The notes under the pieces: generated by a model
The model's input: the letters and a program-made list of their open reading frames with translations, nothing else
Databases searched by the model: none
What the model was told of the DNA's origin: nothing
Program-made: the position numbers and the translations under genes
Assembly: GCA_029582155.1 (NCBI GenBank)
Contig: CM055905.1
Span: forward strand, 61,403,656-61,467,655
DNA length: 64,000 nucleotides
DNA from: Panopea generosa
Lineage: Eukaryota > Mollusca > Bivalvia > Adapedonta > Hiatellidae
Direction: 5' to 3'
Shown here: piece by piece, positions 3,401 to 63,680 of the stretch
How positions within the stretch are numbered: position 1 is the stretch's first letter
Layout: the number at the start of each line of letters is the position of its first letter

Positions 3401-3472
3401 GCTGACTGATAGTTGCTAGAAGGATTTACAACGAGGCGACAGCTGACTAGAGGAACAAATCAACACCTGAAG

Positions 3473-3642
3473 ATGACGAATTTTGGAGATTTCAGTGATA
3501 AAAGTTCGGCAGCGAAAAGGTTTCGGATTCCTATAGAAGAATTATTAGATTACATTGATAAAGTGACTCGGATGGAACGCCGACAGCCACCAAAACGGTT
3601 CCAGAAACCGAGATCGGAAAAGGGTCTCAAATTCGAAGAACG
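3473..3642 (+). CDS. Gene 1, alternative first coding exon A
   Basis: ATG at 3473 opens 56 codons plus two bases and ends at a good donor (CG|GTGAGA, GT at 3643). The peptide starts MTNFGDFSDKSSAAKRFRIP and continues through an acidic-to-basic segment (IEELLDYIDKVTRMERRQPP) to a Lys/Arg/Pro-rich end. The start was chosen because it is the first ATG of the open segment and is followed by coding-like composition. Phase 2 at the end matches exon 20349-20469, whose first base completes an Arg codon (CG+C). Function is unknown. Confidence 0.65.
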
Positions 3643-3777
3643 GTGAGAAAAATGAAATTTAGTTTATTATACATTTTATTATGTGCGTGATATTTTAAGC
3701 ATATGATGAGAGAGTATCCAGCCTGCAAGGCACGGCGCCGGACTCAATGTCCTGGTCTATACTGTTTTGAATAATCC

Positions 3778-16709: not shown

Positions 16710-16742
16710 CCATACTAAACATACGATATCATCCGCGTCAAT

Positions 16743-17014
16743 ATGGAAAATAAAAAAGTTGAAAAGAACACTCGGAAAAGCTTTGTGAACGAGGAAGAGT
16801 ATCAGACCAATAGCAATGCCCGGATGTTTGCTTCGAGCAGCAATCTCGGAGGGCAAGACGATCAGAAAAAAGAGGATGACAGGACGCAAAAACAACATTT
16901 GAGTATTATAAAACGTATTCTGGACATGTTTAACTTAGAGGAAACTAAGAAAAAGTACGAATCGCAAAATGTGGTCGAATTTGTTCTTGATCCCAACGAT
17001 TTTGGCTACGACTG
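16743..17014 (+). CDS. Gene 1, alternative first coding exon B
   Basis: ATG at 16743 opens 90 codons plus two bases, ending at a strong donor (CTG|GTAAGT, GT at 17015). The peptide is hydrophilic (MENKKVEKNTRKSFVNEEEY at the start), then a helical-looking segment (HLSIIKRILDMFNLEETKKK) and an end with VVEFVLDPNDFGYD. It ends in phase 2 exactly like exon A, so TG+C makes a Cys codon on joining exon 20349-20469. An internal exon read from exon A is excluded by the upstream in-frame stop. It could instead belong to an overlapping transcript. Confidence 0.65.
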
Positions 17015-17154
17015 GTAAGTCAGTTTTAAAGTAGCTCGTTGTCACTATCGTAAATCCTTTTGCACATAAAACATTTCTTAACGTTGTGTCGATATGGTTG
17101 CCATAGATTTTATTAACACATACCATCATCATTTTGATTGTCCTCCTCTTTATT

Positions 17155-21326: not shown

Positions 21327-21494
21327 TCAATTATGGATAAACAGGAAGATGCTCGGGCAGCGTCAGAAAATCAGCGTCTGCGCAGGTTAATGCTGGAGGG
21401 TGTAATTGACACGCCGAATGACTACAGGGCGGTCATCCAAGGTGATCACAAGAAGAAATTAAAGAAAAAGAAGAAAAGGAAAAGTAAGAAATTG
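21327..21494 (+). CDS. Gene 1, exon 3 with basic patch
   Basis: Acceptor CTTTTATAG|TC after a pyrimidine-rich run, donor TTG|GTAGGT, 56 codons, phase 0 at both ends. The first half is a charged helix (DKQEDARAASENQRLRRLML). The C-terminal end holds a run of about a dozen Lys/Arg residues (KKKLKKKKKRKSKK) that could act as a nuclear localisation signal or bind nucleic acid or tubulin. Confidence 0.85.
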
Positions 21495-21585
21495 GTAGGT
21501 ATAATATATATAAAAATCAATATGGCAATCAAGTATCTACTGCAGACACCATTGACCAGTCGTGAGGTTATTATTTTATACTAAT

Positions 21586-39159: not shown

Positions 39160-41580
39160 ATATATGTGATGCTCTTCTTTAACTTAATACACTATATGTG
39201 ATGCTCTTCTTTAACTTAATACAATATATGTGATGCTCTTCTTTAACTTAATACAATATATGTGATGCTCTTCTTTAACTTAATACAATATATGTGATGC
39301 TCTTCTTTAACTTAATACAATATATGTGATGCTCTTCTTTAACTTAATACAATATATGTGATGCTCTTCTTTAGCTTAATACACTATATGTGATGCTTTT
39401 CTTTAACTTAATACACTATATGTGATGCTCTTCTTTAGCTTAATACACTATATGTGATGCTCTTCTTTAACTTAATACACTATATGTGATGCTCTTCTTT
39501 AACTTAATACACTATATGTGATGCTCTTCTTTAACTTAATACAATATATGTGATGCTTTTCTTTAACTTAATACACTATATGTGATGCTCTTCTTTAACT
39601 TAATACACTATATGTGATGCTCTTCTTTAACTTAATACACTATATGTGATGCTCTTCTTTAACTTAATACACTATATGTGATGCTTTTCTTTAACTTAAT
39701 ACACTATATGTGATGCTCTTCTTTAACTTAATACACTATATGTGATGCTCTTCTTTAACTTAATACACTATATGTGATGCTCTTCTTTAACTTAATACAA
39801 TATATGTGATGCTCTTCTTTAACTTAATACACTATATGTGATGCTCTTCTTTAACTTAATACACTATATGTGATGCTCTTCTTTAACTTAATACAATATA
39901 TGTGATGCTCTTCTTTAACTTAATACACTATATGTGATGCTCTTCTTTAACTTAATACAATATATGTGATGCTCTTCTTTAACTTAATACACTATATGTG
40001 ATGCTCTTCTATAACTTAATACAATATATGTGATGCTCTTCTTTAACTTAATACACTATATGTGATGCTCTTCTTTAACTTAATACACTATATGTGATGC
40101 TCTTCTTTAGCTTAATACAATATATGTGATGCTCTTCTTTAACTTAATACACTATATGTGATGCTCTTCTTTAACTTAATACAATATATGTGATGCTCTT
40201 CTATAACTTAATACAATATATGTGATGCTCTTCTTTAACTTAATACACTATATGTGATGCTCTTCTTTAACTTAATACAATATATGTGATGCTCTTCTTT
40301 AACTTAATACACTATATGTGATGCTCTTCTTTAACTTAATACACTATATGTGATGCTCTTCTTTAACTTAATACAATATATGTGATGCTCTTCTTTAACT
40401 TAATACACTATATGTGATGCTCTTCTTTAACTTAATACACTATATGTGATGCTCTTCTTTAACTTAATACAATATATGTGATGCTCTTCTTTAACTTAAT
40501 ACACTATATGTGATGCTCTTCTTTAACTTAATACACTATATGTGATGCTCTTCTTTAACTTAATACACTATATGTGATGCTCTTCTTTAGCTTAATACAA
40601 TATATGTGATGCTCTTCTTTAACTTAATACACTATATGTGATGCTCTTCTTTAACTTAATACAATATATGTGATGCTCTTCTATAACTTAATACAATATA
40701 TGTGATGCTCTTCTTTAACTTAATACACTATATGTGATGCTCTTCTTTAACTTAATACACTATATGTGATGCTCTTCTTTAGCTTAATACAATATATGTG
40801 ATGCTCTTCTTTAACTTAATACACTATATGTGATGCTCTTCTTTAACTTAATACACTATATGTGATGCTCTTCTTTAACTTAATACACTATATGTGATGC
40901 TCTTCTTTAGCTTAATACAATATATGTGATGCTCTTCTTTAACTTAATACACTATATGTGATGCTCTTCTTTAACTTAATACACTATATGTGATGCTCTT
41001 CTTTAACTTAATACACTATATGTGATGCTCTTCTTTAACTTAATACAATATATGTGATGCTCTTCTTTAACTTAATACACTATATGTGATGCTCTTCTTT
41101 AACTTAATACAATATATGTGATGCTCTTCTTTAACTTAATACAATATATGTGATGCTCTTCTTTAACTTAATACACTATATGTGATGCTCTTCTTTAACT
41201 TAATACAATATATGTGATGCTCTTCTTTAACTTAATACACTATATGTGATGCTTTTCTTTAACTTAATACACTATATGTGATGCTCTTCTTTAACTTAAT
41301 ACAATATATGTGAAGATCTTCTTTAACTTAATACAATATATGTGATGCTCTTCTTTAACTTAATACAATATATGTGATGCTCTTTTTTAACTTAATACAA
41401 TATATGTGATGCTCTTCTTTAACTTAATACAATATATGTGATGCTCTTCTTTAACTTAATACAATATATGTGATGCTCTTCTTTAACTTAATACAATATA
41501 TGTGATGCTCTTCTTTAACTTAATGCAATATATGTGATGCTCTTCTTTAACTTAATACACTATATATGATGCTCTTCTTC
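39160..41580. repeat. Minisatellite array 2, 32-bp unit, about 75 copies
   Basis: The unit runs TATATGTGATGCTCTTCTTT then AACTTAATACAC. The last base is often A, and rarer units have TTAGCTT or CTATAACTT. Identity between units is very high. Longer periodicity of 480 bases (15 units) is visible between 40025-40285 and 40505-40765. Confidence 0.95.
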
Positions 41581-41791
41581 AAATTAAGGATATGCTCTTC
41601 TTCTAACTACAGACATGTCCTTTGTCTTACTTAAGATTCTCTCTTCTTCTAACACAAGATATAATGGGCCGGAGGCCTAAATTGCTTAATAAAACATTTG
41701 TCATTGTCATATTACGCTTTTCTATTTTAGGGACACAAACCGTACTAGACTTGATACATTGAAATCAATACGGTGACTGATGCTATATTCA

Positions 41792-53775: not shown

Positions 53776-54381
53776 TTATTGGAATCTTCTGGATTCGTGA
53801 ATGAAAGTTTGAACACTTTCGAAGAGATTAACGTTGTCTTCATATGAATGATTGTCTGATCCATATAACAGCTTTTTGACATTGAGTGGATGGAACAACC
53901 TTGTGTTTTGAAATAATTTAATTCTTTGTTGTACAAAAAGAATGCAGTTAAAAAAGTAATGTTCAGCATCTTCCACTCCATGCGTACAGATACATGTTGG
54001 ATAATTTTCTATATGATTAACGTAAAGATCATGATTTGAGTTACTACAATTATTTCTTAGTCTTGCATGCTGTGCAGATAATATTCGTATACCGTAGTTA
54101 AAGTGTTTTGGAACTATAACTGGATGAAAACAAGTATTTATAAGGTTTCGTTTATATATTGATAAGGATGGTGCTTCCCTTAAAGCAACTGATAGTTTAT
54201 TCCACAACGAAACTGGTGATGGAATGAAAGAATTTGCAAAGAACTCAGTTCGTCTGGTTATGATATCAAGATCTTGTGAATTTCTAAGATCGTATGTTGT
54301 TCTAATACTAACTGTATCGGGTAATAAATCTATTAAGTAGTTTGATGTCATACCATGTTTTATTTTGTATGCCAATATCAA
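53776..54381 (-). pseudogene. LINE C-terminal region with Cys/His knuckle
   Basis: A 200-codon open segment following the reverse transcriptase. It has LWNKL and SLSIYKRNL motifs common near the end of such polyproteins, then ARLRNNC and a Cys-x-Cys ... His ... Cys cluster (CICTHGVEDAEHYFFNC) resembling the terminal zinc-binding knuckle of this LINE group. It is separated from the RT segment by a frameshift near 54480, so it is part of a broken reading frame and not a host gene. Confidence 0.8.
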
Positions 54382-54437
54382 TTTTTGATACTTTCTTCTG
54401 TCTGATAGAGATAACCAGCCAATTTCTTTATATAATT

Positions 54438-55737
54438 TTAAAATGGATATTGATCTTGTTGTGCCAGTAACAATTCTGGCAGCTTCATGTTGAATTTTTC
54501 TAAGTTGTCTTTCTCGTAGCAGGTACAGTTATCCCACACTACCGAGGCGTATTCTAAAATTGGGCGAATAAATGATATATAAATTTGATTAAGAGAGTCC
54601 CTACGTATTTTAAATTTAACTTTTCTCATCATGCCAAGAATTTTGGATGCAGACTGTATTATATTCTCAATATGAGCGTGCCATTTACCATAATTACTGA
54701 TTGTAAGGCCCAAGTGTTTGTGATTTTCAACAAATGTTACAGGAATATTTTCAAACAATAGTGAAGGATTACGAACTTTTTTAGATGTGAATAATATTGC
54801 TTTAGTTTTCAAGAGATTGAACGTAGCTAACCACTGTTTTGACCAAGCAGATAACATAACTAGATCGTGATTTATTATACCTTCAAGATCTGATATATTT
54901 GTAGCAGAGCTTGCTAAGGAAGTGCCATCTGCAAACAAACGTGCAAGACTTAATAAATTGTCTGCTATATCATTTACGTAAATTAGAAATAGTAATGGAC
55001 CCAGGACAGACCCCTGCAGTACACCAGCATTGACGGACATTGTATGAGAAGAGGATGTGCCGACAAATACTTTTTGGCTACTACCGGAAAGATAGTTATT
55101 GAACCAATTTAAGATTTTGCCATTTATACCGTATTGTTGCATTTTGAATAGAAGGCCTTTGTGTCAAACACGGTAAAATGCTTTAGAAATATCACAGAAG
55201 ACCATACATGTGTTAAGTTTAAGAGTCAGTTGAAGTAACAATTTGGTGGTATATGTCGATTAATTGGTATACAGTGGAATGACCAGTTAAAAAACCTGAT
55301 TGTCTAGAATATATAAGATTCTCAGAGATAAGGTAATTATATATATACTTATACACACAACGTTCCATAAGTTTACAAATACAACTTAACAGGGAAATAG
55401 GTCTGTAATTACTAACACACGATGAATCGCCTTTATTAAAAAGGGGCATACTAAGTGCATGTTTCCAGTTACATGGAAAAGATTCCTCACGAATAGACTT
55501 ATTAAATAAAATACATAAAGGTTTTGAAATTGTACCCTTGGTTAGTTTTAAAATTCTGTGACTTACTAGGTCTGGCCTTATAGCTTTATTAACACCTAAA
55601 CAAGAAACCATGTCTTCAATGTCCTTCTTTAATATAGTTATGTCGTTAATTGTTCTGTTTGTCCGTATGCTCGGTTCTGGTAGGGTTGACCCTCTATCAT
55701 TTACGTTAGAGATAGAGCAAAAAAAACATTTAAACAA
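54438..55737 (-). pseudogene. LINE reverse transcriptase, broken and catalytically dead
   Basis: Two open segments (55737-55219 and 55142-54438) carry RT landmarks: NKAIRPDLVSHRILK, FPCNWKHALSMPLFNKGD, SNYRPISLLS, QSGFLTGHST, then GVLQGSVLGPLLFLIYVNDI and ARLFADGTSLASS. Between them, in a third frame, FCDISKAF (the first catalytic Asp) is followed by an in-frame stop. The canonical Phe-Ala-Asp-Asp box reads Phe-Ala-Asp-Gly (codon GGC at 54924-54926). At least two frameshifts, one stop and one catalytic substitution make it inactive. Confidence 0.9.
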
Positions 55738-56204
55738 TTTGCTTTCTCATTGTCTGAGAAACATATATTTTCGGAGCTGTCGGTAAGTGTTGTTTTCAGT
55801 ATTGGGATTGTTTCGGATTTACTATTATTTTTAACCATGTTCCTTAGGATTTTCCAGCATTTATTTGGATTGTCTATCCGAGATGTGGCAATATTTTGTT
55901 CCAAGTTGCTGAAAAAGCGATCTTTTGTGTGCTTTTTCAAGTTGTTAACCTTGTTCCTTAAACGTTTGTGTTTTGTCCAATCATTTTGGTTTGTACTTTT
56001 GGTCGCTATTTTCTTTTGTCTGTCTCTTTGTCTCGAAGTTGTTCGTAACTGTGAGTCGTACCAGGGTTTGTCATTAGGTCTAATTGTTACTTCTTTGGAT
56101 GGGATACATTTAGTTATAAGAGATAAAAATGTCTGCGTAAATCGTGAACATGAGTCATTTATGTCAAGTTCTTCAATAAAGTCCCAGTCTTGGTCGGATA
56201 TCAT
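55701..56204 (-). pseudogene. LINE linker between endonuclease and reverse transcriptase
   Basis: A 167-codon open segment with NDKPWYDSQLR, the Pro-Trp-Tyr/Phe motif often found between the two domains, then a basic stretch and KCWKILRNM. It belongs to the same polyprotein and runs out of frame near 55701. Confidence 0.8.
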
Positions 56205-56240
56205 GCGGTTTAACGTTTCATAGTCACCTTTATTGTAATT

Positions 56241-57179
56241 TCAGACTTTTCGCTTTGAACATGTTTGTTTATAATCGTGAAACTTTATTATTAAGAGTGT
56301 AGCGTTGTGGTCGCTAACTCGTCTATCAATGTCTATTACGTCAGAGGTTAAAGGTAGTATACTGTCGGATATGATAATAGGGTCAAGTAAGGTTGCTGAG
56401 GTATCTGTCACTCGTGTCGGTTTATCGATTATATTTTTCATGTTATTTATGATGATAATGTTACGTAAATGGCAGTCTCTTTTGCTCAATAAATCTTGGT
56501 TTAGATCACCCACAACAAAAATATTGGAATTTTATTCGAAAGCACGTTCGATAGAAATATTAAAATTTTCCCAAAAACAAACTGGTGTATTTGGAGAACG
56601 ATATATATTACATAGTAAAAAGGAAGACGATTTGTGACAAATCTCTACCCATATTGCATGGACGAGATGCTTTCGAGATCCGTACGTCTTTTCGACATAA
56701 TTGTCTTTGAAACATAAGTTAAAAGACCTCCTGAATGGAAGTACAATCTCTTCTGTAGATACATCTGTCAAAGTTATCAATAACTAAATCGTCAGAAGAT
56801 ACCAAATTGTTAAGATGAGTTTCAGCAAAGCACATGATGTCAATATCAGTAAAGTTTTGGAAATAAAATAACATTTATGGATAATGCTCCTTATATTTAA
56901 ATGGATAATTGAAATTGCACCTAGTATGTTCACAGTATCCGTAAAGTTGGGACCGGGATTTGTCTCAACATCTCCTGACATCAAAACTAATAATAGGATG
57001 ACCATAGCACATTGGAGATTGACAGTACTTTGTTGAAAATAAACAGATGTAAATTTGAAATAGAAACCTGCGATAGTAAATATAAACTCAAGAAACATAA
57101 ACAACTCTTTCAAATGGTTATATTTTAGAGTGAGTCTCTCGAATACTTGATTGCAATTGTGAAACATACCGATTGCCAC
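56241..57179 (-). pseudogene. LINE N-terminal leader, 2A motif and APE endonuclease, frameshifted
   Basis: The segment opening at 57179 has a hydrophobic stretch (CAMVILLLVLM), the 2A motif and then IIHLNIRSIIHK, the start of an APE endonuclease. A frameshift follows. The next frame shows FAETHLN with the catalytic Glu, and further frames show WVEICHKSSSFLLCNIYRSP, GDLNQDLL, DKPTRVT and VSDHNATLL with the Ser-Asp-His box. The catalytic residues that can be read are conserved; only the frame is broken. Confidence 0.85.
56949..56975 (-). other. 2A ribosome-skipping motif GDVETNPGP
   Basis: Nine codons on the minus strand spell GDVETNPGP, the full consensus of 2A peptides (Asp-Val/Ile-Glu-x-Asn-Pro-Gly-Pro). 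They lie between a hydrophobic segment and the endonuclease. In 2A peptides the ribosome skips the bond between the last Gly and Pro, releasing the upstream product. The match is exact; activity here is not shown. Confidence 0.9.
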
Positions 57180-57199
57180 ACGCCATGATTTTATGTCAT

Positions 57200-57980
57200 T
57201 ACCCTTTGGGATATTGTCTCATACAAAAAGCAAATTGTTGGAACAACCGGTTTGTTTTCATACAAATTAAAACAACACCACGCTCATGACAAACCGCATA
57301 AACCAGGACCAAACCAGATAAAACAATGGCATATTCATTTAGTAATAAAATAAATAAGAATATTGAAATAGTGACTTTTAAAAATAAAATAAATTCATTC
57401 ATACTAAGTTAGAGAATAGACTTACTGGCCTAATTTGAATGATGATTTATAAACAGTTTTTTAATGTCACCGTATTACTTTCGTTTTAGAAGTAGTATTA
57501 AAAACTAATTCAGACTTTAGTGGAAAACAAAATGTACACATGAAAATTCAATAATTTGTAACAAGTAAGTTTCAAAGCACATCTATTTACACTTTATAAG
57601 CATTTATAAATTTGAGCCAGACATCCAACTGATTATATGTACACACGTGGAGAACGAGTATAGGTAGCGTATGTTGAATATCTTCAATGTATGCACTTAA
57701 CAATATAAACGTTCTGCACTTGCAAGATGAAAATTCAAAAACAAATTTGTATATCATACAAAAATCACACAAAGTATCTCTTGGTGTGTTGATGAACAAA
57801 CCGTATCATTTTTTGGTAGTTATAATTCAATAAAATTACAAACCAGTTGTTTTAAATAAACAAGCTGCGTTTGTGCCAAACGCATCACATAATTACAATA
57901 TATTATACTTAATCTTAATACAAATGTAATAGTTGATAGCTATAATCATTACAATATTATCTTTTAATTTCAATGTAACT
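57200..57980. other. Upstream flank of the LINE
   Basis: AT-rich. The 5' end of the element may extend to about 57400, but no boundary or duplication is visible. Confidence 0.3.
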
Positions 57981-61105: not shown

Positions 61106-61330
61106 CCCCCCCTCCCCCTGTAACACGATTCTTGCGCTTAATAAGTCCTATGTAACTTAATTAGAAATATTTTCAAAATATCCCCCAACCCCCGATAACA
61201 CGATTCTTGCGCTTAATAAGTCCTATGTAACTTAATTTGAAATATTTTCAAAATACCCCCCCACCCCCGGTAACACGATTCTTGTGCTTAATAAGTCCTA
61301 TGTAACTTAATTTGAAATATTTTCAAAATA
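61106..61330. repeat. Three tandem 75-bp units
   Basis: TAACACGATTCTTG starts at 61121, 61196 and 61271. Each unit ends TATTTTCAAAATA and is preceded by a C-rich block. Confidence 0.95.
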
Positions 61331-61334
61331 TTCA

Positions 61335-61843: not shown

Positions 61844-61967
61844 ATGAACTCGAAATGTCAACTTGCGGTAGTCACGTATGTTGCTATCTACGCTGTCATG
61901 ATGGTGGTCCACGCTGACGACCGTGTTCTGCGGCAACCAATGGAAGCTCCTTCCAACGTAAATACAC
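61844..61967 (+). CDS. Gene 2, coding exon 1: signal peptide of a secreted precursor
   Basis: ATG at 61844 follows an acceptor with a good pyrimidine tract (CACTTGTCGTTTCAG|AAGCG). The first ~24 residues (start MNSKCQLAVVTYVAIYAVMM) are a classical signal peptide with a likely cut after Val-His-Ala, leaving DDRVLRQPMEAPSN. The strong donor CAC|GTGAGT (GT at 61968) ends the exon in phase 1. That is exactly what the long frame of the next exon needs. An alternative donor ten bases earlier (AAC|GTAAAT, phase 0) would give a much shorter product. Confidence 0.7.
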
Positions 61968-62054
61968 GTGAGTTGGCAATTTCTATACTCTCGTTGTTGT
62001 CTGTATTCTGTAGTGATTCGTATACGGCAGTAAGTCTCATTGCCATTCTTCTCT

Positions 62055-62205
62055 GACCGCTGATTCAAGTTGGAAAGTTATCAGTGACTCGCAGAGAAGG
62101 GTGGGCTCAAGTTCTGATTAATCTTCAAGGACCCGAGGAAAGACTTGTTAGTTAACTGGTCGTCAAGGTGATATAAACATGAGGCCAAATATTCAAACAA
62201 ATCCT
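62055..62205 (+). mobile_element. tRNA-Asn SINE, 5'-truncated
   Basis: CTGACCGCTGATTCAAGTTG and GGCCAAATATTCAAACAAAT match the body and end of the SINE at 2041-2328. It lies within the intron of gene 2. Confidence 0.65.
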
Positions 62206-62689
62206 TTTCGCCTTTTAATTCGTCTTCGAGTATAGCAATTCAACCCAGCTAATCGCGCAAATAAGAAATATTAGATTATTTAATTTTTGCACAAACTGCT
62301 CGATTCATTTGCATATTGTTAAATTAAACACAGTCAAATCAGAGAGCTGAACGGATTGCTTCAATTGTATATTGTTAAATTATAGTTGACTGGTTATGTA
62401 TTTAATATATTATAACCAATATCAAAGAAATGATAAGATTTTTTTCCTGGAACCAGTTAAAATCACTTGTTTAAATTAAAATGACGCCGTTATTTAATGG
62501 CGTTACACTATATTTTATGTTGGCACCATCATAATTTTATCGGTGCAACGCTATATTTTAACGTTGGACAGATGAATTATCAACGGTGTACCGATACTTT
62601 TTATTTGGTAGCAGTCAACCGCCATCGTTACACCGCCATGCTAAGCTCCCCTACCTATATTTAATGTCTTGTAGTTTATAGAAGACAAA

Positions 62690-63083
62690 AAATAATCAAG
62701 AAGGAAAATCTGGATTTTATTTTTTTACTGACATCTGCAGGGCTAAAATATCATAAGAAATATAAAGGTTATGTTTCATCCAAGATAAAAAAAAATCTGT
62801 TCAGTGTGTACAATGTTGACAAAGTGAAAGTAGATTTCAGAAATCATGTATTCATACCCCAATTTCCAAGCACCAATGTTTCCAAATTAACAATTCAAAC
62901 ATAACAATACTTTCAAAATGGTAAAAATACGTAAATAATGATATTCAAATCACAAACTTAGAATTGAAACAGGGAAATGGAAATGCATCTTTAAATAAAA
63001 AGGAGCAGGGATTATTTATCACCGCCATTATTATATACACCACGGAAGCACTTCCTGTTTCAAATGGGCGTGTTATGCCTAAA
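62690..63083 (+). mobile_element. Family A element copy
   Basis: It matches 50740-51108 through TCAGTGTGTACAATGTTGAC, AAATCATGTATTCATACCCC and CGGAAGCACTTCCTGTTTC to TTATGCCTAA. It lies 60 bases upstream of the last exon of gene 2. Confidence 0.7.
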
Positions 63084-63141
63084 AATAACAAACATTAAGT
63101 AAACTGGAAATGTAATGGAACTCATTTTGTATATTTTACAG

Positions 63142-63680
63142 ACAACAGTGTACAAGATAGTCGGCCATATCCGAAGTCATCAAGTCCGTGGTATGTCCCT
63201 GGCTTGCACAATACCAAATACTCCGTTGACGATATGCACACAGGAAACCCAAACCCCGCTTTTGCACACAGGAGCAAACGTAGATCTTATACCGGAAGTG
63301 ACGACAAACTATTTAAAAAAAGAAATGCGTTTCAATATAGACGGCCAACACATATAGATTTAAAAGCATTTTTTAAAACAAATGAAGATTGGATAAAAAG
63401 CTTATACCACGACACTGCAATATCGGATAAATCAAGAGCGAACCGCCTGACAACATTGCAGAATTTGCTGCGGAACGGAAGTGACGTCAAAGGTTCTGCA
63501 GATAGCTCTGATAGACTAGAAAACGATGAATTTGCTAACCTTGCTGGAGACATAAGCAAGAGACGTGATTACAACTGTGATGTGACAAAAGTGACCCTGA
63601 ATACAATAATGGAATACCTGAGGACGGGAAAAGTGTGCGGATATAGAGCGGCTAATGTCAGATTTGGACTAGGTAGATAA
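63142..63680 (+). CDS. Gene 2, last coding exon: prohormone with amidated two-Cys C-terminal peptide
   Basis: Acceptor GTATATTTTACAG|AC; the first two bases complete a His codon and the frame runs to TAA at 63678-63680, giving a precursor of 220 residues. Cleavage-type basic sites are at residues 87-89 (KRR), 100-102 (KKR), 108-109 (RR) and 181-183 (KRR). After the last site a 35-residue segment starts DYNCDVTKVTLNTIMEYLRT, has Cys at 187 and 207, and ends NVRFGL followed by Gly-Arg and stop. Gly-Arg at the end is the standard signal for C-terminal amidation. This layout is that of a neuropeptide or peptide-hormone precursor, secreted through the regulated pathway. I do not recognise the family. 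A second frame is open from the same acceptor for 71 codons but has no such organisation. Confidence 0.7.

Follow-up and report, generated by a model that had tools for sequence, protein, structure and literature searches.

The analysed window, a 64-kb stretch of the Panopea generosa genome, carries a candidate two-exon gene on the + strand, which starts with an ATG at 61844 and ends with the stop codon at 63678-63680. As the preliminary description had proposed, the two exons join in phase, and together they encode a candidate precursor protein of 220 residues. The features of the gene and of the predicted precursor are as follows.

61844..61967, + strand: exon 1, coding part, with the start codon, the predicted signal peptide and the start of the propeptide; phase-1 donor
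61844..61915, + strand: predicted signal peptide, 24 residues, ending V-H-A before Asp-Asp-Arg (inspection and a crude hydropathy filter)
61968..63141, + strand: single intron, 1174 bases, GC 0.33
63142..63680, + strand: exon 2, with the remaining propeptide, the spacer and the predicted mature peptide, to the stop codon; a 193-codon open frame
63276..63284, + strand: tribasic KRR, residues 87-89, read in the sequence
63315..63323, + strand: tribasic KKR, residues 100-102, read in the sequence
63339..63344, + strand: dibasic RR, residues 108-109, read in the sequence
63345..63557, + strand: middle segment, residues 110-180, between basic sites, without an amidation signal
63558..63566, + strand: tribasic KRR, residues 181-183, read in the sequence, where cleavage would release the N-terminal end of the last peptide
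63567..63671, + strand: predicted mature peptide, 35 residues, of which residues 4 and 24 are Cys and the last four are R-F-G-L
63672..63680, + strand: Gly-Arg-stop, read in the sequence, with the amide donor, a basic residue for carboxypeptidase and the stop

The exon 1 donor (CAC/GTGAGT, after 61967) leaves one codon base on exon 1. It is without the usual AG on the exon side, which counts against the gene model. The acceptor TTTTACAG ends at 63141, and its pyrimidine tract (0.72) is the richest among the nine AG listed between 62991 and 63170. A phase-0 donor at 61957 (AAC/GTAAAT) was rejected on frame and consensus; it fits the usual donor consensus more poorly than CAC/GTGAGT and leads into the 63103-63357 frame, which does not contain the peptide. 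Both exons are free of frame damage.

The rest of the window is rich in repeats. Broken pieces of a non-LTR retrotransposon lie on the - strand at 53776-57218, with a reverse-transcriptase match (RVT_1, E 3e-8), and an upstream frame carries a 2A-like motif, GDVETNPGP. At 39161-41587 a 32-base unit is repeated about 76 times (96% matches) in a satellite-like array, and a 75-base unit stands three times in tandem (93% matches) at 61107-61331, about 0.5 kb upstream of exon 1. A tRNA match at 904-976 and a tRNA-like stretch, recognised by eye about 1.9 kb past the stop codon (L002 2260-2331), are probably the heads of tRNA-derived SINEs. We also observed exon-like open frames on the + strand at 3413-3643, 16719-17015 and 21327-21581, none with a Pfam family above the cut-off, which are perhaps exons of an upstream gene. 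Among 10 other window frames (of several hundred) that were run against Pfam, the one match over the cut-off was to reverse transcriptase.

Layout of the predicted precursor

The leader MNSKCQLAVVTYVAIYAVMMVVHA is compatible with a signal peptide on inspection and passed the crude hydropathy filter. The four dibasic or tribasic sites noted earlier were found as KRR, KKR, RR and KRR, in this order. The proposed final peptide, DYNCDVTKVTLNTIMEYLRTGKVCGYRAANVRFGL, with 35 residues between the last KRR and Gly-Arg-stop, two Cys 20 positions apart and an RFGL end, was likewise present in full. In precursor numbering its two Cys are residues 187 and 207, whereas the third Cys of the precursor (Cys 5) is in the leader. 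The predicted peptide has a net charge of about +2 and, if bridged and amidated, a predicted MH+ of 3980.99. The hydrophobic moment exceeds 0.55 in LTTLQNLLRNG of the middle segment and in LNTIMEYLRTG of the final peptide, reaching 0.60 over the latter, which lies between the two Cys. As an internal repeat, this pair was rejected as not significant (p 0.06).

The middle segment had also been put forward as a possible second product. It carries no amidation signal, and its resemblance to the final peptide is not significant. The segment is most likely a connecting peptide, with an unmodified second product as the alternative. For the protein as a whole, the sequence gives good support to a precursor that is secreted, is cut at dibasic sites and has an amidation signal.

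Searches for relatives and comparison with known families

The genome searched was the window's own assembly (1,474,161,289 bases in 39 contigs; the window is G000:C12:61403656-61467655), the sole molluscan sequence set in the searches. The 35-residue peptide is single-copy in this 1.47-Gb genome (one match at E<=0.001). Apart from its own locus, exon 2 retrieved two matches, both at chance level (E 2.6 and 5.9), and there was no paralogue within the 64-kb window, where the best other match had E 3.4. In Pfam the peptide fell into no family, and the precursor had one match, which stayed under the threshold; PDB sequences gave nothing for the peptide and three weak matches for the precursor (E 0.2 to 1.6). 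The LntA_helical match of the precursor (Pfam and PDB, E 0.17-0.4) was rejected as a bacterial family under the cut-off. The silence of Pfam and PDB on the peptide was counted against the hormone-precursor reading. No relatives were found among 48 pattern stretches from prokaryote genomes or eight from viral contigs (IMG/VR), as expected for an animal gene.

Five known peptide families have their own loci elsewhere in the genome. Of the 63 matches that an APGWamide query returned at E<=10, the strongest (E 3.4e-5) is on contig C15, where a 227-codon frame forms a typical precursor with APGW, RPGW, KPGW, TPGW and SPGW, each followed by GKR. On C11 (L011 1039-1704; G000:C11:1932001-1932363), one open frame codes for an egg-laying-hormone (ELH) precursor that holds two amidated copies. 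Two calcitonin-type exons on C9 match a scallop peptide at 84% and 57%, and one NPY/NPF-type exon on C1 has a Hormone_3 match well above the cut-off. A buccalin-like gene, also on C9 (L018 901-2142; G000:C9:68242072 region), contains sixteen near-identical repeats ending GQLGKR or GKLGKR (PMGFMGQLGKR-type) in a 413-codon frame, and its match to the scallop query is weak (E 0.17). The candidate lacks defining features of each of these families and belongs to none of the five. The APGWamide precursor and the calcitonin-type exons are in line with a molluscan source, which is most likely.

Calcitonin-type peptides, as described in the source passages, resemble the candidate in being amidated, 30-odd residues long and in having two Cys; their Cys pair is close together at the N-terminus and their end is a Pro-amide, whereas the candidate has Cys 20 apart and a predicted Leu-amide. 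An N-terminal ring of few residues with a Pro- or aromatic-amide end is absent from the candidate. A calcitonin/CGRP identity, suggested by residues shared by eye (CD, VT, R-S/T-G, V, NV), was rejected at p 0.68 in local and 0.12 in global alignment. For the middle segment, p was 0.024 with CGRP and 0.039 with a scallop calcitonin, two low values among 46. The calcitonin Pfam model matched nothing in the genome, but it also missed the genome's own calcitonin-type exons, so its silence is no evidence.

The spacing Y-L ... R-F near the C-terminus of the candidate loosely recalls NPY/NPF, which ends in RF- or RY-amide and not in RFGL-amide. The peptide gave p 0.055 (local) and 0.034 (global) with Drosophila NPF. 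The Hormone_3 profile had no match at the candidate locus, its one genome match at E<=1 being the C1 exon. An NPF identity was rejected on the family member elsewhere and the different C-terminal end. The candidate and the APGWamide/RGWamide precursors, of which APGWamide is treated as the mollusc form in the passages of PMC8557429, both have two Cys; in the latter they are 20-30 residues apart at the C-terminus, with no amidated copy between them, and are split by a phase-0 intron. In the candidate both Cys are within the predicted peptide with no intron between, and the precursor has no repeated xxGW-amide copies.

In our view the candidate is probably a genuine molluscan gene, present in one copy, that encodes a secreted prohormone; its family would be undescribed or confined to a lineage. 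Several other explanations were weighed, which are not mutually exclusive with one another. The precursor could belong, in diverged form, to a molluscan or lophotrochozoan family that is already known and appears under another name in the supplements of published transcriptomes. Examples would be the families named after motifs in oyster, scallop, abalone or nemertean, whose sequences are mostly in supplements. The consulted passages report 13 potentially novel families in scallop, a mollusc-specific set with amidated and Cys-bearing peptides in oyster, and 72 peptide groups in nemerteans, brachiopods and phoronids. Nevertheless, those of PMC8557429, PMC8398477, PMC5996578, PMC6425005, PMC4200219 and PMC6523705 hold no description of a 35-residue FGL-amide with Cys 20 apart. 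Moreover, when six fragments of the peptide were searched as letters, five were absent from the full texts searched, supplementary peptide lists lying outside this search; the sixth, 'rfgla', occurred in 17 papers, of which one is on neuropeptides (PMC5831470) and the other 16 look unrelated by title. We regard such a family membership as unlikely, though worth keeping in view. The earlier label 'uncharacterised' is partly supported: Pfam, PDB, IMG/VR, prokaryotes and the genome itself gave no convincing match, and five better-known families have other loci in this genome.

The product could also be secreted without being a hormone, for instance as an antimicrobial, as a peptide of mantle or mucus or as a pheromone, but this is improbable. 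A signal peptide and basic sites alone are no proof of neural use, and the net charge and the amphipathic stretch would suit such a product; however, there are only two Cys and the charge is weak. Gly-Arg-stop after a peptide flanked by a tribasic site is the usual arrangement of amidated hormones, and its presence here points to one.

The predicted C-terminus invites comparison with allatostatin A, whose insect forms end in Phe-Gly-Leu-amide, as is predicted for the candidate. The long peptide could act through its tail as an allatostatin-A-type ligand on a galanin/allatostatin-A-type receptor, by descent or by convergence. In the passages of PMC5831470, a predicted wasp allatostatin A, AGYVYRFGLa, ends in YRFGL-amide, and the candidate tail V-R-F-G-L-amide is one residue off this end; an RFGL-amide end is therefore already known, in insects and on a short peptide. 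Between the peptide and cockroach allatostatin A the local p was 0.005; none of the 46 local tests gave a lower value, and the match depends on the FGL end. On the other side, the likeness is based on three to four residues, and the passages of PMC5996578 give a GxL-amide end for molluscan allatostatin A (buccalin); the buccalin-like gene of this genome has such ends, in its repeats with GQLGKR, whereas the candidate has a single V-R-F-G-L end. Multiple short copies with Y/FxFGL-amide or GxL-amide are absent from the candidate precursor, in which V-R-F-G-L occurs once. Members of this family are short, multi-copy peptides without Cys and with no long single copy, unlike the one long, predicted bridged peptide of the candidate. 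We find a role of this type quite improbable.

The resemblance to the CRF/DH44/ELH group was the most persistent of all, and it is a hint at most. The candidate shares with this group a weak N-terminal alignment, an amphipathic stretch and a predicted amidated end. It could be a strongly diverged hormone of this type that gained a bridge, its middle segment being a degenerate first copy. In global alignments the peptide gave p 0.0007 and 0.003 (two runs) with human CRF, 0.004 with Manduca DH, 0.017 with Aplysia ELH and 0.04 with the genome's own ELH1. Tested in a small profile, the middle segment had p 0.04, and a two-copy layout is present in the genome's own ELH gene. These values are set against p 0.27 for the peptide in a six-sequence profile test, and global p values of 0.90 with the genome's own ELH2 and 0.76 with Drosophila DH44. 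Single low p values were also to be expected, because 46 local panel tests and further alignments were made. As a positive control in the same local test, ELH2 gave p <=0.0007 with ELH1, Aplysia ELH and Manduca DH, 0.01 with Drosophila DH44 and 0.37 with human CRF. The candidate has no profile match to the family; genome-wide ELH and CRF models had no match at the candidate locus, and an ELH gene is located on C11. Neither a Cys bridge nor an FGL end is known in this family. Such a descent is very improbable.

Coding potential and simulations

The 193-codon frame of exon 2 stayed open in none of 20,000 simulations with the exon's own dinucleotide make-up. As a weaker control, sixty 64-kb windows were simulated under each model. 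The median length of their longest frame was 141-149 codons, and the greatest length was 195 (order 1), 215 (order 2) or 179 codons (order 3). Frame length alone is not conclusive, because simulated windows reach similar lengths and the window is repeat-rich. GC by codon position in exon 2 is 0.44/0.44/0.37, compared with an intron GC of 0.33. RNY codons are most frequent in the coding frame (fraction 0.30, versus 0.22 and 0.19 in the other two).

When the residues of exon 2 were shuffled 50,000 times, at least three tribasic clusters appeared in 1,097 shuffles (2.2%) and a GR or GK end in 477 (0.95%); both occurred together in four. The bare number of basic sites is uninformative, since 72% of the shuffles contained at least four basic clusters of any length. 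One ATG on the + strand of the window (61844), and none on the - strand, passed a filter for a signal peptide with an in-frame phase-1 GTRAG donor, a crude filter written after the candidate and its phase were known. It is the combination of features, rather than frame length, that argues against chance. That the frame is open by chance, or that the gene has decayed, is very unlikely given the frame and shuffle simulations, the leader-donor filter and two undamaged exons, even though long frames do occur in simulated windows.

Proposed processing and family status

By the standard pathway of such precursors, from which we infer processing, amidation and bridge, the protein would enter the secretory pathway and lose its signal peptide. 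Prohormone convertases would cut at KRR (63558-63566), a carboxypeptidase would trim the final Arg, and peptidylglycine alpha-amidating mono-oxygenase would convert the Gly to yield RFGL-amide. The two Cys would form one bridge around the amphipathic LNTIMEYLRTG, leaving a free 11-residue tail, GYRAANVRFGL-amide. Amidated tails are usually the receptor-binding end; this tail is thus the likeliest part to engage the receptor, most likely one coupled to G proteins.

More tentatively, and with slightly less than even confidence, we suggest that the gene is the founding member of a family not yet described, molluscan or perhaps lophotrochozoan, with a single 35-residue peptide, a 20-spaced bridge, an RFGL-amide tail and its own orphan receptor. 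This suggestion follows from its absence from a limited set of sources (Pfam, PDB, IMG/VR, prokaryotes, the genome itself and literature text). The precursor would be of an ordinary kind, although its family may be new, and it implies no new kind of mechanism. Many molluscan receptors are orphans. An amidated peptide of the predicted mass can be synthesised, and it would be a direct ligand candidate as well as a probe for neuroendocrine cells.
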